Source: Shimia isoporae
GTDB lineage: Bacteria > Pseudomonadota > Alphaproteobacteria > Rhodobacterales > Rhodobacteraceae
DNA length: 64,000 nucleotides
Direction of reading: 5' to 3'
Assembly: GCF_004346865.1 (NCBI RefSeq)
Contig: NZ_SMGR01000001.1
Span: forward strand, 930,001-994,000
The notes under the pieces were generated by a model, which was given only the letters and a program-made list of their open reading frames with translations, was not told the DNA's origin and did no database searches. Positions 39,637 through 45,476 of this stretch are shown here, one piece after another (the stretch's first letter is position 1; each line of letters begins with the position of its first letter). The translations under genes and the position numbers were made by a program.

Positions 39637-41058
39637 TTAGGCGGCAGAGCCTCCAACTGTCAAACCTTCCATTAATACAGTGGGTTGACCTACACCCACA
39701 GGAACCCACTGGCCGGCCTTGCCGCAGTTGCCCATTCCCGGATCGAGAGCCATGTCGTTGCCAAGGCCCTTGATCTGCATCATCGCGGTGGCGCCGTCGC
39801 CAATGAGAGTAGCTCCTTTCACCGGAGCGCTGATTTGGCCATTTTGAACCCGATAGGCTTCGGTACAGGAGAAAACGAACTTGCCATTGGTGATGTCGAC
39901 CTGACCACCACCAAACCCAACAGCATAAATGCCGTCCTTCAGGGATGCGACGAGGTCTGCGGGATCAGACGTACCGCCATTCATGTAAGTATTTGTCATG
40001 CGAGGCATTGGAGCGTGCGCATAGCTTTCGCGCCGCCCGTTGCCTGTTGGCGCCACGCCCATGAGGCGCGCGTTTTGGCGGTCCTGCATGTAACCAACGA
40101 GAATGCCATCCTCAATCAGGGTTGTTTTACCGGAGGGCGTCCCTTCGTCATCAACGGTAATAGAGCCACGACGGTCCGGAATGGTTCCGTCATCAATTAC
40201 GGTCACGCCTTTTGATGCCACCTGTTGTCCGATTTGGCCGGCGAACTTGGATGTGCCTTTGCGGTTGAAGTCGCCTTCGAGGCCGTGGCCGACTGCTTCA
40301 TGCAGGAGAATGCCCGGCCAACCTGGGCCCAGCACAACTTCCATAGGGCCCGCAGGCGCGGGTTCAGCGTCAAGGTTGACCAACGCAATGCGTAGCGCTT
40401 CCTTAGCCTTGGACTGCCAGTCAGCCGGATCAAGCAAACCATCAAGGCCGATGCGACCGCCGCCGCCGGCGGTACCGGATTCACGACGCCCGTTTTGTTC
40501 CACGATCACAGAAACGTTTACCCGTGTCATGGGGCGGACGTCAGCGATGCGGGCGCCATCCGGCCGTAAAATGACAACTTCCTGATGGGAGGCCGCCAAG
40601 GTCGCAGATACTTGAACCACTCGGGTATCCAAATCGCGCGCAAAGGCATCAATCTCGCGCAGCGTTTCGATCTTTACGGGAAATGAGACACCGCCGATTG
40701 GGTCGGCGTCTGTATAAAGTTTCCGGTTCGTCGGCTGCGGCGCCTCTGCCAAAACCGCACCGCCTTCGGCCACGGCCAGACGTGTTGTTTCCACTGCCCG
40801 TGCGATGGCGTCTTCTGAGATATCGGAGCTGTGCGCATAACCGGATACCTCGCCGTTTACGGCGCGCAGGCCGAATCCTTGCGCTGCGTCAAAGCTGGAG
40901 GTCTTGAGGCGGCCATCATCGAATACGAGCGCTTCGGAGCTTCGGCGCTCCAGAAAGAGCTCTCCGTCTTCGGCGCCTGCCGTTGCCTGACGCAACAAAC
41001 GTAGGGCTGCGCCCTCATCCAGGGTGGTCTCAAACGGGCGGAAAGGGGTGTTTGTCAT
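39637..41058 (-). CDS. tldD: metalloprotease TldD
   Basis: About 473 residues of the PmbA/TldD family. The metal-binding HEAVGH (with LLHEAVGHGLEGDFNRKGTS) is the active-site region of TldD; the third ligand region is VFSCTEAYRVQNGQ. TldD works with TldE/PmbA as a heterodimer that degrades unfolded peptides (CcdA antitoxin, microcin B17 leader); tldE is not in this window. Start choice: ATG 41058 (or GTG 41073). An FNR-consensus site lies 23 bases upstream of the ATG. Confidence 0.93.
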   Translation of the reverse strand: MTNTPFRPFETTLDEGAALRLLRQATAGAEDGELFLERRSSEALVFDDGRLKTSSFDAAQGFGLRAVNGEVSGYAHSSDISEDAIARAVETTRLAVAEGGAVLAEAPQPTNRKLYTDADPIGGVSFPVKIETLREIDAFARDLDTRVVQVSATLAASHQEVVILRPDGARIADVRPMTRVNVSVIVEQNGRRESGTAGGGGRIGLDGLLDPADWQSKAKEALRIALVNLDAEPAPAGPMEVVLGPGWPGILLHEAVGHGLEGDFNRKGTSKFAGQIGQQVASKGVTVIDDGTIPDRRGSITVDDEGTPSGKTTLIEDGILVGYMQDRQNARLMGVAPTGNGRRESYAHAPMPRMTNTYMNGGTSDPADLVASLKDGIYAVGFGGGQVDITNGKFVFSCTEAYRVQNGQISAPVKGATLIGDGATAMMQIKGLGNDMALDPGMGNCGKAGQWVPVGVGQPTVLMEGLTVGGSAA

Positions 41059-41080
41059 TCGGTCTGTGCTCACTCGGGTT

Positions 41081-41094
41081 TTGATCTAAATCAA
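41081..41094. promoter_or_regulatory. FNR/FnrL box (TTGAT-N4-ATCAA)
   Basis: TTGATCTAAATCAA matches all ten fixed positions of the FNR/CRP-family FNR consensus. It lies between divergent tldD (ATG 41058) and the cytochrome oxidase genes (ctaC ATG 41242). In Rhodobacterales FnrL is the oxygen-sensing regulator, so it is a likely site for oxygen control of the aa3 oxidase, though distance does not exclude tldD. Confidence 0.75.
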
Positions 41095-41241
41095 AAAAGC
41101 GACTGTTCGCCGCAAGCTTCGATCTTTATCTAGGCGCCAGAATATGGTTTCAAGGCGCGAAACAACAGCGGGATTCCGCCTACATGGTGTGAATCGCGCG
41201 AATCTGAACAAAAGAAACACCGCAACCGATCAGGGTGAGAC

Positions 41242-42090
41242 ATGCGAATTCTATCGACATTCCTGGGCCTTATGGCAGCTGTAACCGCCGTTCCGGCGCT
41301 CGCGCAGGAGGCTGAACACATCGGCAAGCCGGTTCCAAACGCGACAGGCTTCCAGCCGGCCGCAACCGAACTTGCACGCCAAATTCAATCTTTGGACACT
41401 CTGCTGCTGTGGATAATTTCCATCATCACGCTTTTTGTGACTCTTCTGCTGGCGTACTGCATCGTGCGCTACAACCGCCGCTCCAACCCGAACCCGTCCA
41501 GCTTTACTCACCACACTACCCTTGAGGTCGCATGGACAGTGATCCCGATTCTGATTTTGCTTTTCATCGGTGCAAACAGCTTGCCGGTTCTGTTCAACCA
41601 GCAAGAAATCCCTGAGGGCGAAATCCACATCAAAGTGACAGGGTATCAGTGGTACTGGGGCTACGAATACACAGACCACGAGTTCGAATTCGAAAGCTTC
41701 CTGCTTCCGAAAGAGGAACTGGCGGCGAATGGCTACAACGACGACGAATATTTGCTGGCGACCGACACCAAAGTTGTCGTGCCGCTTGGCAAGACTGTCG
41801 TGATGGACGTTACCGGTGCCGACGTGATCCACAGCTGGACCATTCCGTCGTTCGGCGTGAAGCAAGATGCAGTGCCCGGCCGCATTGCACAGCTTTGGTT
41901 TGAAGCCGACAAAGAGGGTGTCTACTTCGGTCAGTGCTCTGAGCTGTGCGGCAAGGACCACGCCTATATGCCGATCACTGTCGAAGTTGTTTCCGAGGAG
42001 AAATACAACGAGTGGCTGAAAGGCGCGATCGAGGAGTATGCGGGTAACCCGGCAACTCTTCCGGCCGTCAAAGTGGCCGCAGCCGACTGA
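41242..42090 (+). CDS. ctaC: cytochrome c oxidase subunit II
   Basis: 282 residues. Signal peptide ([21 protein letters not shown]), two membrane helices (about 54-75 and 97-118), then the periplasmic CuA domain. Copper ligands: His197, Cys232, Glu234, Cys236, His240 and Met243 ([12 protein letters not shown]), with the electron-entry Trp segment [10 protein letters not shown]. Accepts electrons from cytochrome c in the aa3-type oxidase. No cytochrome c fusion. First gene of the cluster; subunit I is not in this window. Confidence 0.97.
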
Positions 42091-42181: not shown

Positions 42182-43120
42182 ATGAGCGACGCAAGCATCA
42201 ATACGCAAGCCAGCACAGGAGAGGCCAGCTTCGGCGACTATTTCGCCCTGTTAAAGCCTCGCGTGATGTCCTTGGTGGTGTTCACAGCTGCCGTTGGCCT
42301 ATTGGCCGCTCCGGGAAGCCTGCACCCTTTCGAGGCGTTTTGTGCAATCTTGTTTATCGCGGTGGGCGGTGGCGCATCGGGCGCCCTGAACATGTGGTTT
42401 GATAGCGACATCGATCAGTTGATGAAGCGTACGCAGGGTCGTCCTATCCCCGCTGGGAAGGTGCAGCGCGACGAGGCGCTGGCAATTGGCGTTGCGCTTT
42501 CCGGGTTCTCGGTAGTGATGTTAGGTCTTGCGACCAACTGGGTAGCTGCAGGACTGCTCGCTTTCACCATCTTCTTCTACGCCGTGATCTACACGATGTG
42601 GCTCAAGCGCTGGACTCCGCAGAACATCGTGATCGGCGGCGCGGCGGGTGCCTTTCCCCCGATGATTGGCTGGGCCGCCGTGACCGGTGGTGTGGCGATT
42701 GAGTCTGTTCTGATGTTCACCCTGACGTTCATGTGGACACCGCCGCACTTCTGGGCGCTATGTTTGTTCATGAAGTCGGACTACAAAGACGCTGGAGTGC
42801 CGATGCTGCATGTGACGCATGGGCGGCGGGTGACCCGCAACCACATTCTTGTCTACACCGTTCTGCTGGCGGTCATTGCCGTTGGAATGGCGTTTACCGG
42901 CGTCGGTGGTCCAATCTATTTGACAACGGCTCTTGTGCTGAACGGCCTGTTCCTGGCGGGTGCTGTTTCGATCTGGCGCCGCGACGAAGCGGTCGCCGAA
43001 GCAGACGGTTACAAACGCGAAAAGGCCTTCTTTGCGCTGTCTTTGCTGTATCTCTTCCTGCATTTCGGCGCGATTTTGGCAGAAGCCCTGTTGGCGCCCT
43101 ACGGTTGGGGAGGCTGGTGA
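42182..43120 (+). CDS. ctaB: protoheme IX farnesyltransferase (heme O synthase)
   Basis: 312-residue UbiA-superfamily prenyltransferase, about nine helices. Carries the Asp-rich motif N-M-W-F-D-S-D-I-D-Q-L-M-K-R-T (with GALNMWFDSDID) for the farnesyl pyrophosphate magnesium site and the VYTMWLKRWTPQNIVIGGAAGAFPPMIGW loop. Adds farnesyl to heme b, giving heme O for the oxidase. AAGGAAGACC precedes the ATG. One base separates its stop from the next start. Confidence 0.96.
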   Translation: MSDASINTQASTGEASFGDYFALLKPRVMSLVVFTAAVGLLAAPGSLHPFEAFCAILFIAVGGGASGALNMWFDSDIDQLMKRTQGRPIPAGKVQRDEALAIGVALSGFSVVMLGLATNWVAAGLLAFTIFFYAVIYTMWLKRWTPQNIVIGGAAGAFPPMIGWAAVTGGVAIESVLMFTLTFMWTPPHFWALCLFMKSDYKDAGVPMLHVTHGRRVTRNHILVYTVLLAVIAVGMAFTGVGGPIYLTTALVLNGLFLAGAVSIWRRDEAVAEADGYKREKAFFALSLLYLFLHFGAILAEALLAPYGWGGW

Positions 43121-43121
43121 C

Positions 43122-43283
43122 ATGAGCTTCAAGGAACCGCATGAACTGCACAAACGCCGGTTTGGCCGTAACCTTGGGGTCGCCTTGGTGCTTGTGAGCT
43201 TTATCTTCATCGTCTTCGGGCTGACCTATGTAAAGGTGACCCGCGGCGACTATGAACCAGCAAACACGAGCGTTGAACGCTGA
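43122..43283 (+). CDS. small single-helix oxidase-associated protein (CoxF-like)
   Basis: 53 residues between ctaB and ctaG: a charged start (MSFKEPHELHKRRFGRN) and one helix (LGVALVLVSFIFIVFGLTYVKVTRG). Position and shape match the small ORF called CoxF in Rhodobacterales oxidase clusters. Its ATG comes 1 base after the ctaB stop and its TGA overlaps the ctaG ATG, so it is translated in the operon. Role presumably in oxidase assembly; not proven. Confidence 0.8.
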   Translation: MSFKEPHELHKRRFGRNLGVALVLVSFIFIVFGLTYVKVTRGDYEPANTSVER

Positions 43284-43858
43284 TGGCAATGGATCCGAAA
43301 CATAAAACTCTGGCCCAGACCGCCGGTGTCGTGCTGCTCATGGGTGGGCTGGCTTGGGCATCAGTGCCCTTTTATGACTGGTTCTGCCGTGTGACTGGCT
43401 TTGGTGGGGTTACAAATACCGCCGACGCTGGAAGCGAAGTGATCCTTGATAAAACCATCAAGATCCGTTTTGACGCCTCTACCGAGCGCGATATGCCATG
43501 GGAGTTCACACCCATGCAGCGCGAGATGGAAGTCCGTATCGGCGAAACAGGTCTCGCTTTCTATGAGGCCTACAACCCCACGGATCGTCCGGTGGCAGGG
43601 AGCGCGAGCTACAACGTGGTGCCTTACGACGCCGGCGGGTTCTTTACCAAAATCGACTGTTTCTGCTTTGAGGAGCAGGTACTGCAACCGGGTGAGCGGG
43701 TAACTATGCCCGTAAGCTTCTATGTTGATCCCGAGATCGTTGAGGACCGTGACGCAAAGTACGTCAAGGTGATCACGCTGGGGTACACATTTTATGAAAT
43801 CGACCTGCCCGAGGAGACTGCCTCCTTGACGCAAGCAACCAACAAAGACGTAAACTAA
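43283..43858 (+). CDS. ctaG: cytochrome c oxidase assembly protein CtaG (Cox11)
   Basis: 191 residues: one N-terminal helix ([30 protein letters not shown]), then a periplasmic immunoglobulin-like domain. The copper-binding CFCF is intact (IDCFCFEEQ, Cys126 and Cys128), with the conserved MPWEFTPMQ stretch. Delivers copper to the CuB site of subunit I. Overlaps the small upstream gene at TGATG. Confidence 0.95.
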
Positions 43859-43887: not shown

Positions 43888-44688
43888 ATGGCGCATGCAA
43901 AAAATCACGATTATCACATTCTAGCGCCGTCGGCGTGGCCGCTTCTTGGCGCGCTCGGTGGTTTCATCATGTTGTTCGGTGCCGTGCTTTGGATGCACGA
44001 CAGCGGTCCTTGGATGTTCCTGATCGGCCTGGTTGGCGTTCTGTACGTCATGTTCGGCTGGTGGGCAGACGTTGTCGCTGAAAGCCAGGTGGGTGATCAT
44101 ACCCCTGTGGTGCAGATCGGTCTGCGCTATGGCGTCATCCTGTTCATTATGTCCGAGGTCATGTTCTTCGCAGCGTGGTTCTGGACTTTCTTCAAGCACG
44201 CGCTCTACCCCATGAGCCCGGAAAGCCCTGCTGTTGATGGTGTATGGCCGCCCGTTGGCATTGAGACGTTCGACCCGTGGCACCTGCCTCTGATCAACAC
44301 GCTTATCCTTCTGCTTTCCGGCTGTGCCGCGACCTGGGCGCACCACGCACTGGCGCATGAAAACAACCGTAAAGACATGAAAAACGGCCTGATCATTGCG
44401 GTTTTGCTGGGCCTGCTGTTCACCTACTTCCAGGCGTATGAGTACAGCCACGCAGCGTTCGGGTTTGCTGGCAATATCTACGGCGCGTCCTTCTTCATGG
44501 CGACTGGTTTCCACGGCTTCCACGTGATCATTGGCACCATCTTCCTGTTGGTCTGCCTGATCCGCCTCATGAAGGGGCATTTCACTCAGGAGAAACACAT
44601 CGGTTTCGAAGCGGCGGCCTGGTACTGGCACTTCGTGGACGTGGTTTGGCTTTTCCTCTTTGCAGCGATCTACATCTGGGGTCAGTAA
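43888..44688 (+). CDS. ctaE: cytochrome c oxidase subunit III
   Basis: 266 residues, seven helices. Family marks: [57 protein letters not shown] and the C-terminal [26 protein letters not shown]. Stabilises proton uptake in aa3-type oxidase. A 29-base gap follows ctaG; a strong terminator follows it. Confidence 0.97.
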
Positions 44689-44749: not shown

Positions 44750-44782
44750 ATCGCGGCAAGGCCACTCCTTGCCGCGATTTTT
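44750..44782 (+). terminator. Rho-independent terminator between ctaE and SURF1
   Basis: Perfect 12-bp stem (44750-44761 with 44767-44778), 5-base loop CCACT, five T's. It ends 20 bases before the SURF1 start, so SURF1 and thrC are read either from a promoter within this gap or by read-through. Confidence 0.9.
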
Positions 44783-44801
44783 CTATCAAGGGACCACTTC
44801 A

Positions 44802-45476
44802 TTGCGCCTTATCCTGCCTCTCTTCTTCGGCATTCTTGGCACCGTTGTGCTGGTGTCGCTTGGAAACTGGCAGGTCCAACGGTTGGCTTGGAAAGAAGAG
44901 GTGCTTGCCGACATCAACGAGCGGATCGTGGCGGAACCTGTTGCATTGCCTGCCGCGCCGGACGAAGACTCTGATCGATATCTGCCTGTTACTGTGTCTG
45001 GGGCATTTACCGGCGAGGAACTGCACTTTCTGGCCTCTACCAAACAGGCGGGTGCAGTTTATCGCGTTGTCGCACGGTTTGAAACGGACGCTGGCCGCGC
45101 GGTTATGGTGGATCGCGGTTGGGTGAAAACCGAAGACAAGAATGTGAACCGCGGGGCCGCTGAGGCGATCATTGTTGGCAACCTGCACTGGCCTGACGAG
45201 CGCGACAACTTTACTCCCGACAATGATGTGGACGGCAATATCTGGTTTGCGCGCGACATCGGGCAAATGGCGGAAGCGTTAATGACCGAGCCTGTACTGG
45301 TTGTGGCGCGGGAGGTGTCGGAAAACAGCGCGGGTGTGACGCCATTGCCCGTCGACACCGCCGGTATTCCCAATGACCATCTGGGCTATGCGGTCACCTG
45401 GTACGGACTTGCGATTGTCTGGGTGGCCATGACCCTGTATTACCTGCGCCGGACGCGCAAAACCAAAAAGGCCTGA
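44802..45476 (+). CDS. SURF1 family oxidase assembly protein
   Basis: 224 residues: helix at each end (ILPLFFGILGTVVLVSLGNWQVQRLAWK; GYAVTWYGLAIVWVAMTLYYL) around a periplasmic domain with VDRGWVK and the ending NDHLGYAVTWYGLA. SURF1 is a heme a-related assembly factor for cytochrome oxidase. The start is a TTG (44802) with AAGGGA 8 bases upstream; the frame runs on to 44769 but those codons lie in the terminator hairpin. thrC begins 5 bases after the stop. Confidence 0.85.
   Translation: MRLILPLFFGILGTVVLVSLGNWQVQRLAWKEEVLADINERIVAEPVALPAAPDEDSDRYLPVTVSGAFTGEELHFLASTKQAGAVYRVVARFETDAGRAVMVDRGWVKTEDKNVNRGAAEAIIVGNLHWPDERDNFTPDNDVDGNIWFARDIGQMAEALMTEPVLVVAREVSENSAGVTPLPVDTAGIPNDHLGYAVTWYGLAIVWVAMTLYYLRRTRKTKKA

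Follow-up and report, generated by a model that had tools for sequence, protein, structure and literature searches.

A box between tldD and ctaC

The locus studied here raises the question of whether an FNR-type box that lies between tldD and the genes of the aa3-type cytochrome c oxidase is an operator, and, if it is, which protein uses it and in which direction. The window, by which we mean the whole 64,000-nucleotide stretch of Shimia isoporae DNA that was analysed, had originally been predicted to hold at this place a site through which FnrL could either repress or activate the oxidase cluster. The box, TTGATCTAAATCAA, occupies positions 41081-41094 and matches 10 of the 10 fixed bases of TTGAT-N4-ATCAA, exactly as had been predicted. 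Between it and the ATG of ctaC (41242, plus strand) there are 147 bases, the distance also given originally, while its distance from the ATG of tldD (41058-41056, minus strand) comes to 22 bases on recounting and not 23, the earlier count having been one position too high. An alternative start for tldD is an in-frame GTG at 41073; in most relatives, however, the TldD match starts at residue 6 of the GTG-started reading frame, which is the ATG.

The identities proposed for the genes on either side of the box agree with their Pfam domains. The divergent neighbour tldD (39637-41058, minus strand, from its ATG) has PmbA_TldD domains. On the plus strand, ctaC (41242-42090; COX2 and COX2_TM), which encodes subunit II of the aa3 oxidase, is followed by ctaB (42182-43120; UbiA family, a haem O synthase by position), the oxidase assembly gene ctaG/cox11 (43283-43858; CtaG_Cox11), ctaE for oxidase subunit III (43888-44688; COX3) and the gene for the SURF1 assembly factor (44769-45476; SURF1), and these five genes, ctaC-ctaB-ctaG-ctaE-surf1, probably form one operon. 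A 53-amino-acid frame (MSFKEPHELHKRR...) between ctaB and ctaG, at 43122-43283 (ORF 42960-43283), looks as if it encodes a small protein of the membrane or of oxidase assembly. Among the 80 named loci listed in the comparison described below, the nearest CtaC and TldD are those of Shimia marina and a Shimia sp. (84% identity for CtaC and 87-88% for TldD).

A palindrome of this kind could arise by chance: the window contains one exact TTGAT-N4-ATCAA, its dinucleotide shuffles average 0.03, and 3 of the 100 shuffled versions also have one. Degenerate matches in the window are uninformative, because sites with at most two mismatches to the FNR pattern number 31 where 22.8 are expected. When the genome (4,229,391 bases) was searched for the FNR consensus, as had been suggested with the original prediction, it gave five exact sites and 0 for the reversed pattern, and the looser TTGAY-N4-RTCAA occurred 22 times compared with 3 for its reversed-pattern control. 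Boxes of the looser form also precede ctaD and ccoN/usp, and one lies between a hemN-like gene and fnrL. The reading that the box is a chance match is refuted by its constant place in the genus and in near genera, and we give it practically no weight.

Conservation of the box

The genus was represented by 25 genomes, that of S. isoporae included, all of which have ctaC; in one of them (G020) the match starts at the first base of a contig, which left 24 regions for examination. In every one of these TTGAY-N4-RTCAA stands 141-151 nt upstream of ctaC, with the strict form of the box in 20 and GTCAA in the remaining four. Mean pairwise identity within the genus is 0.94 for the box, compared with 0.57 and 0.63 for the flanking intergenic DNA at 41059-41080 and 41150-41226. 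The gene order is equally stable, since tldD adjoins ctaC in 24/24 genus genomes and in 28/28 near genera, making all 52 loci, and lies beside ctaC in 38 of 40 further genera.

A CtaC match was found in 288 of 295 genomes of the family. The 88 genera compared outside the genus consist of 28, the top-ranking CtaC matches available as loci, and of 60 without the strict composite site described below, taken as 40 and then 20, of which last 20 three were picked for being without RegA; because the 60 were chosen as lacking the strict composite, this is not a random set. The exact TTGAY-N4-RTCAA box is present in 23/28 near genera, where it lies 137-164 nt upstream of ctaC, in 10/40 and in 4/20, giving 37/88 in this selected set. 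The strict box occurs in 24 of the regions 100-235 nt upstream of ctaC in the 88 genera, and four shuffled palindromes occur in 0 each. The conservation across the Rhodobacteraceae on which the original prediction was to be judged therefore holds for the genus and the near genera and weakens further out: close relatives nearly always have the box, whose distribution beyond them is patchy. As several genomes with FnrL are without the box (G137, G165 and G211, for example), regulation of ctaC by FnrL is not obligatory in the family. In nine of the 52 loci (L031-L037, L040 and L041) the start codon of tldD is overlapped by a second FNR-like site (such as TTGATCTGCGTCAT), which is separated from the main box by 34 nt and stands 181-185 nt upstream of ctaC; the window has none.

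FnrL and the proposed control of the aa3 genes

FnrL is encoded elsewhere in the genome (L006, G000:C1:94782-95531). A domain search assigns it CRP/FNR domains, an N-terminal CxxCx7C motif and an ExxSR recognition helix can be seen by eye, and its nearest solved relatives are FNR and FixK2. The gene adjoins HemN-like and universal-stress-like genes (by eye) and is near the cbb3 genes.

An FnrL-like match is found in 272 of the 295 family genomes. The 23 genomes without any FnrL match, three of them identified by elimination, include none of the 66 that have the strict composite (0/66; Fisher p=0.003, uncorrected for kinship). Of the composite genomes, G122, which is 84% complete, shows no more than a weak Crp/Fnr match (1.6e-25), and the FnrL match of G138 is moderate (1.9e-59). 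In 68 of the genera (28 + 40) we counted FnrL as absent where there was no match or one with E above 1e-50, which was the case for 11. The exact box is present in 0/11 of these FnrL-less genomes and in 33/57 with FnrL (p=0.0004, uncorrected for kinship), and within the 40 further genera alone in 0/10 and 10/30 respectively (p=0.04, likewise uncorrected for kinship). The presence of the box follows the presence of FnrL. One genome without FnrL (G080, L055) has a box at ctaC with one change, TAGATCCAAATCAA; the change falls in the left TTG, and this may be a decaying site.

We propose that the box at 41081-41094 is an FnrL operator and that FnrL represses the aa3 operon at low oxygen, and we place the probability of this reading at about 0.82. 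It is supported because the box is exact and constant in place, because FnrL is present, because similar boxes stand at ctaD, at ccoN/usp and between hemN and fnrL, and because of the data from relatives. The control of the aa3 cluster by FnrL that had been predicted gains support from the conservation of the box and its absence in the 11 FnrL-less genomes, and the sign, which the prediction had left as either repression or activation, is taken as repression from the published ChIP-chip and mutant data on R. sphaeroides and D. shibae (PMC2908626, PMC5398030). We infer by analogy with these relatives that FnrL occupies and represses this promoter in S. isoporae as well. FnrL, an oxygen-sensing [4Fe-4S] regulator of the Crp/Fnr family, would dimerise as oxygen falls and bind 41081-41094, where it would lower transcription of the five genes from ctaC to surf1 while activating the high-affinity cbb3 oxidase. 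Repression may come about by hindrance of RNA polymerase or of a protein at the GCGnC-N5-GnCGC repeat described below, possibly RegA/PrrA.

The core FNR regulon that Dufour et al. (2010, PMC2908626) predict for the alpha-proteobacteria includes coxII as well as RSP1825, a peptidase-U62 gene. For Caulobacterales, Tsoy et al. (2016, PMC4999443) list ctaCDBXGE as having FixK sites, and for Rhizobiales the cta operon as having FnrN/FixK sites. Speaking against control by FnrL, ctaDII mRNA is reported to be unchanged by an fnrP mutation in aerobic cultures of Paracoccus, ctaC being outside the measurement (PMC6955949). The accessible text of a paper on R. capsulatus FnrL (PMC4634722) has no match for aa3, ctaC or cox.

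The box could instead be used by another member of the Crp/Fnr family, a CrpK- or Dnr-like protein, in place of FnrL or besides it. The genome does encode a second Crp/Fnr protein (L007, G000:C3:519712-522930) with a partial cysteine motif (by eye), beside a ccmF-like gene. In R. sphaeroides, CrpK has 23 of its 38 sites in common with FnrL, and coxI is bound by both proteins (Imam et al. 2014, PMC4263372). However, the CrpK table of that paper, in its accessible part, has coxI and not coxII, FnrL itself is reported to occupy R. sphaeroides coxII (PMC2908626), and the presence of the box tracks FnrL (0/11 against 33/57). We consider use of the box by such a protein unlikely, and continue to favour FnrL. 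On its other side the L007 gene is flanked by one that resembles a multihaem cytochrome gene, both neighbours being identified by eye.

It is also conceivable that tldD, and not ctaC, is the gene under control of the box, given that only 22 nt separate it from the tldD ATG and that in 9/52 relatives the start of tldD is covered by the second FNR-like site. We know of no physiological link between FnrL and tldD. The RSP1825 (peptidase U62) group is a predicted FNR target, but the accessible text of the same study reports neither an oxygen response nor detected FnrL binding for RSP1825 in R. sphaeroides (PMC2908626). An effect of the box on tldD is unsupported, and we regard tldD as a very unlikely target in place of ctaC.

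A second element beside the box

The original prediction missed an inverted repeat, GCGnC-N5-GnCGC (GCGACTGTTCGCCGC), which lies 4 nt downstream of the FNR box at 41099-41113. In alignments this region just downstream stands out more strongly than the box, and the order there is an A-tract, the inverted repeat, CTTTATCT and gAATATGgTTT. The A-tract (41095-41098) is a spacer of 4-5 nt in the genus and, like the box and the repeat, is annotated here without a strand. The conserved CTTTATCT block (41124-41131, plus strand) is a candidate part of the ctaC core promoter, and the gAATATGGTTT block (41139-41149, plus strand) may be the -10 or start region of ctaC. A sigma-70 scan returned no promoter. 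The two blocks (41124-41149) were rejected as a -35/-10 combination, since they do not form a standard sigma-70 pair, and the right arm of the repeat, which reads TTGACG in many relatives, was not adopted as a -35 element; the window has TTCGCC there.

The repeat is more widely kept than the FNR box, being present in 28/28, 24/40 and 12/20 genera, or 64/88 against 37/88. A plain count of the pattern in the same upstream regions gives 68/88, whereas the corresponding counts for six control palindromes of similar composition are 0, 0, 0, 0, 0 and 2 of 88. Nine of the 11 FnrL-less genera keep the repeat, if a doubtful GC-rich match in G126 is counted. Chance alone often yields the pattern, which occurs 3 times in the window where 5.4 are expected, so that its constant place, and not the pattern, is the evidence for the repeat. 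In all 26 of the 88 genera that have both elements, the gap between box and repeat is 2-6 nt.

Instead of being bound by a protein, the repeat and A-tract could act as an intrinsic terminator or attenuator on transcription that runs leftward into tldD. The minus strand reads as a 5-bp stem followed by six T and is reported by a terminator scan, the repeat folds at -7.6 kcal/mol, and its positions 4 and 12 covary, with 53/82 complementary pairs against 35 expected. Covariation is also expected of symmetric operators, however, and the fold z-score is only -1.4. The GCGTC..GCCGC variant (17/82) breaks the stem, the A-run before the repeat is only 0-1 in 21/82, and the loop is CGTTT or TGTTT in 45/82, which terminators do not need. 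A terminator at this place seems improbable to us, and the repeat is treated below as a putative protein site.

Box and repeat as a pair

The strict composite, TTGAT-N4-RTCAA-N0-5-AGCGnC-N5-GnCGC, is found in 66 of the 295 family genomes and its reversed pattern in 0/295. These genomes contain it at 67 places, of which 47 have a listed ctaC position, and all 47, compared by hand, are directly upstream of ctaC. The other 20 comprise 18 that are upstream of ctaC, one (L100) where the contig ends just past the site, beside tldD, and one (L088) that is unrelated. When the form of the composite with ATCAA was scanned in a collection of 84,980 species, at least 119 stretches were obtained, 80 of them listed by name. 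Among the 119 listed, ctaC lies within 400 nt in 98, ctaC or tldD does so in 103, and 16 are elsewhere; the 11 of these 16 that are named have record titles of other classes or phyla (5), of other alpha-proteobacteria (4) or of 'Proteobacteria' only (2). At ctaC the pair is seen in named records of, among others, Ruegeria, Roseovarius, Phaeobacter, Leisingera, Shimia, Sagittula, Pseudooceanicola and Thalassovita. One record titled Enemella evansiae (L181, JAFKDC010000007.1) has a tldD-ctaC region of Rhodobacteraceae type with the composite, and here either the label appears to be wrong or the assembly is mixed.

The pair of box and repeat is nearly a signature of the ctaC promoter in the Rhodobacteraceae. 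An FNR site at ctaC is of an already known kind; among the titles, openings of abstracts and accessible text searched, no description was found of an FNR-RegA pair at ctaC.

A possible role for RegA/PrrA

The best candidate for a protein that would bind the repeat is RegA/PrrA. The sequence GCGACTGTTCGCCGC fits GNGNC-N5-GNCGC, a GCG-type inverted repeat that we take to be the form of a RegA/PrrA site. One RegA above the curated cut-off is encoded in the genome (NF033791, 321 bits, cut-off 250), as it is in 275 of the 295 family genomes. The closest published site is GCGACCGTTCGTCGC from R. capsulatus RegA ChIP-seq, at ccoN/usp, which equals the repeat of the window at 13/15 positions; it is, however, the closest of those displayed among 33 RegA peaks with widely differing sequences (PMC5359404). 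Imam et al. could derive no strong PrrA motif, according to the accessible text (PMC4263372), and no usable consensus was found in that of a paper on RegR (PMC4064962). To the RegA/PrrA consensus of Mao et al., (C/T)(G/C)CGG(C/G)-N0-10-G(T/A)C(G/A)(C/A), as quoted in PMC5435760, the window fits at 8/11 positions by eye.

The repeat is kept in 4/8 RegA-less genomes and in 60/80 with RegA (p=0.21); restricted to complete RegA-less genomes the figures are 2/6 against 60/80 (p=0.05, or p=0.007 if G126 is counted as absent). In G126, which is without RegA, the repeat match is GC-rich and stands outside the usual context. G219 keeps a good repeat without RegA, and G102 and G120, both under 85% complete, keep the whole composite without a RegA match, which argues against a strict link between RegA and the repeat.

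A composite operator, in which FnrL and RegA/PrrA on adjacent sites jointly set aa3 expression, would extend the explanation by FnrL and would not exclude repression by FnrL. RegA would hold the repeat and drive basal expression or adjust its level, an effect that FnrL would overrule when oxygen is low. We give such an operator slightly less than an even chance. It is favoured by the spread of the repeat (64/88 genera, with controls in 0-2 of 88 against a plain count of 68/88), by the strict form in 66/295 family genomes against 0 for the reversed control, by the 2-6 nt gap in 26/26, by the likeness to the R. capsulatus site, by the RegA of the genome itself, and by the report that RegA strongly activates the aa3 genes in Brucella suis (PMC5435760). 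Against it stand the diversity of the RegA peaks, the lack of a strong PrrA motif, the imperfect fit to the consensus of Mao et al., the genomes that keep the repeat or the composite without RegA, and the frequency of the repeat pattern by chance.

More tentatively, and with odds that we would put clearly on the lower side of even, the ctaC promoter of the Rhodobacteraceae may rest on an old operator of RegA type, kept by most of the genera viewed, to which an FNR box would have been added at a nearly fixed offset of 2-6 nt and from which it could be lost again. Two oxygen or redox regulators would then jointly set the switch between the aa3 and cbb3 oxidases, with the FNR half disappearing where FnrL is lost and the RegA half staying.

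For the repression by FnrL that we favour, the locus extends a known link of oxygen control, the lowering of the low-affinity oxidase by FnrL, to a bacterial group whose members are mostly marine. The second and more widely kept element could explain how aa3 expression is set without FnrL. Together the box and repeat offer a compact and testable model of two redox regulators sharing one promoter, and of the gain and loss of regulation.

Comparison with known systems

The site most like the present one is that at coxII in R. sphaeroides. In this counterpart promoter, an FnrL ChIP-chip peak with TTGATtcagATCAA lies at the coxII operon RSP1826-9, whose regulation is given as negative ('-') and which is described as 'apparently repressed' (PMC2908626). 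The adjacent locus number, RSP1825, is that of a peptidase U62/gyrase-modulator gene, of the TldD/PmbA family like the tldD found here. The organism and the spacer bases of the box are different, and the accessible text of that study makes no mention of an adjacent repeat. Since the coxII region is also bound by sigma-70 anaerobically in the same data, repression of coxII in R. sphaeroides may be partial.

For the second element, the nearest parallel is the RegA box at ccoN/usp in R. capsulatus, which differs from the repeat of the window at 2/15 positions. It belongs to a different gene, and the accessible text names nothing of aa3 among the targets (PMC5359404). A further parallel is found in D. 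shibae, a marine relative with the same operon, ctaCBGE, in which FnrL is reported to repress the aa3 genes at low oxygen (Ebert et al. 2017, PMC5398030), as we propose for S. isoporae.
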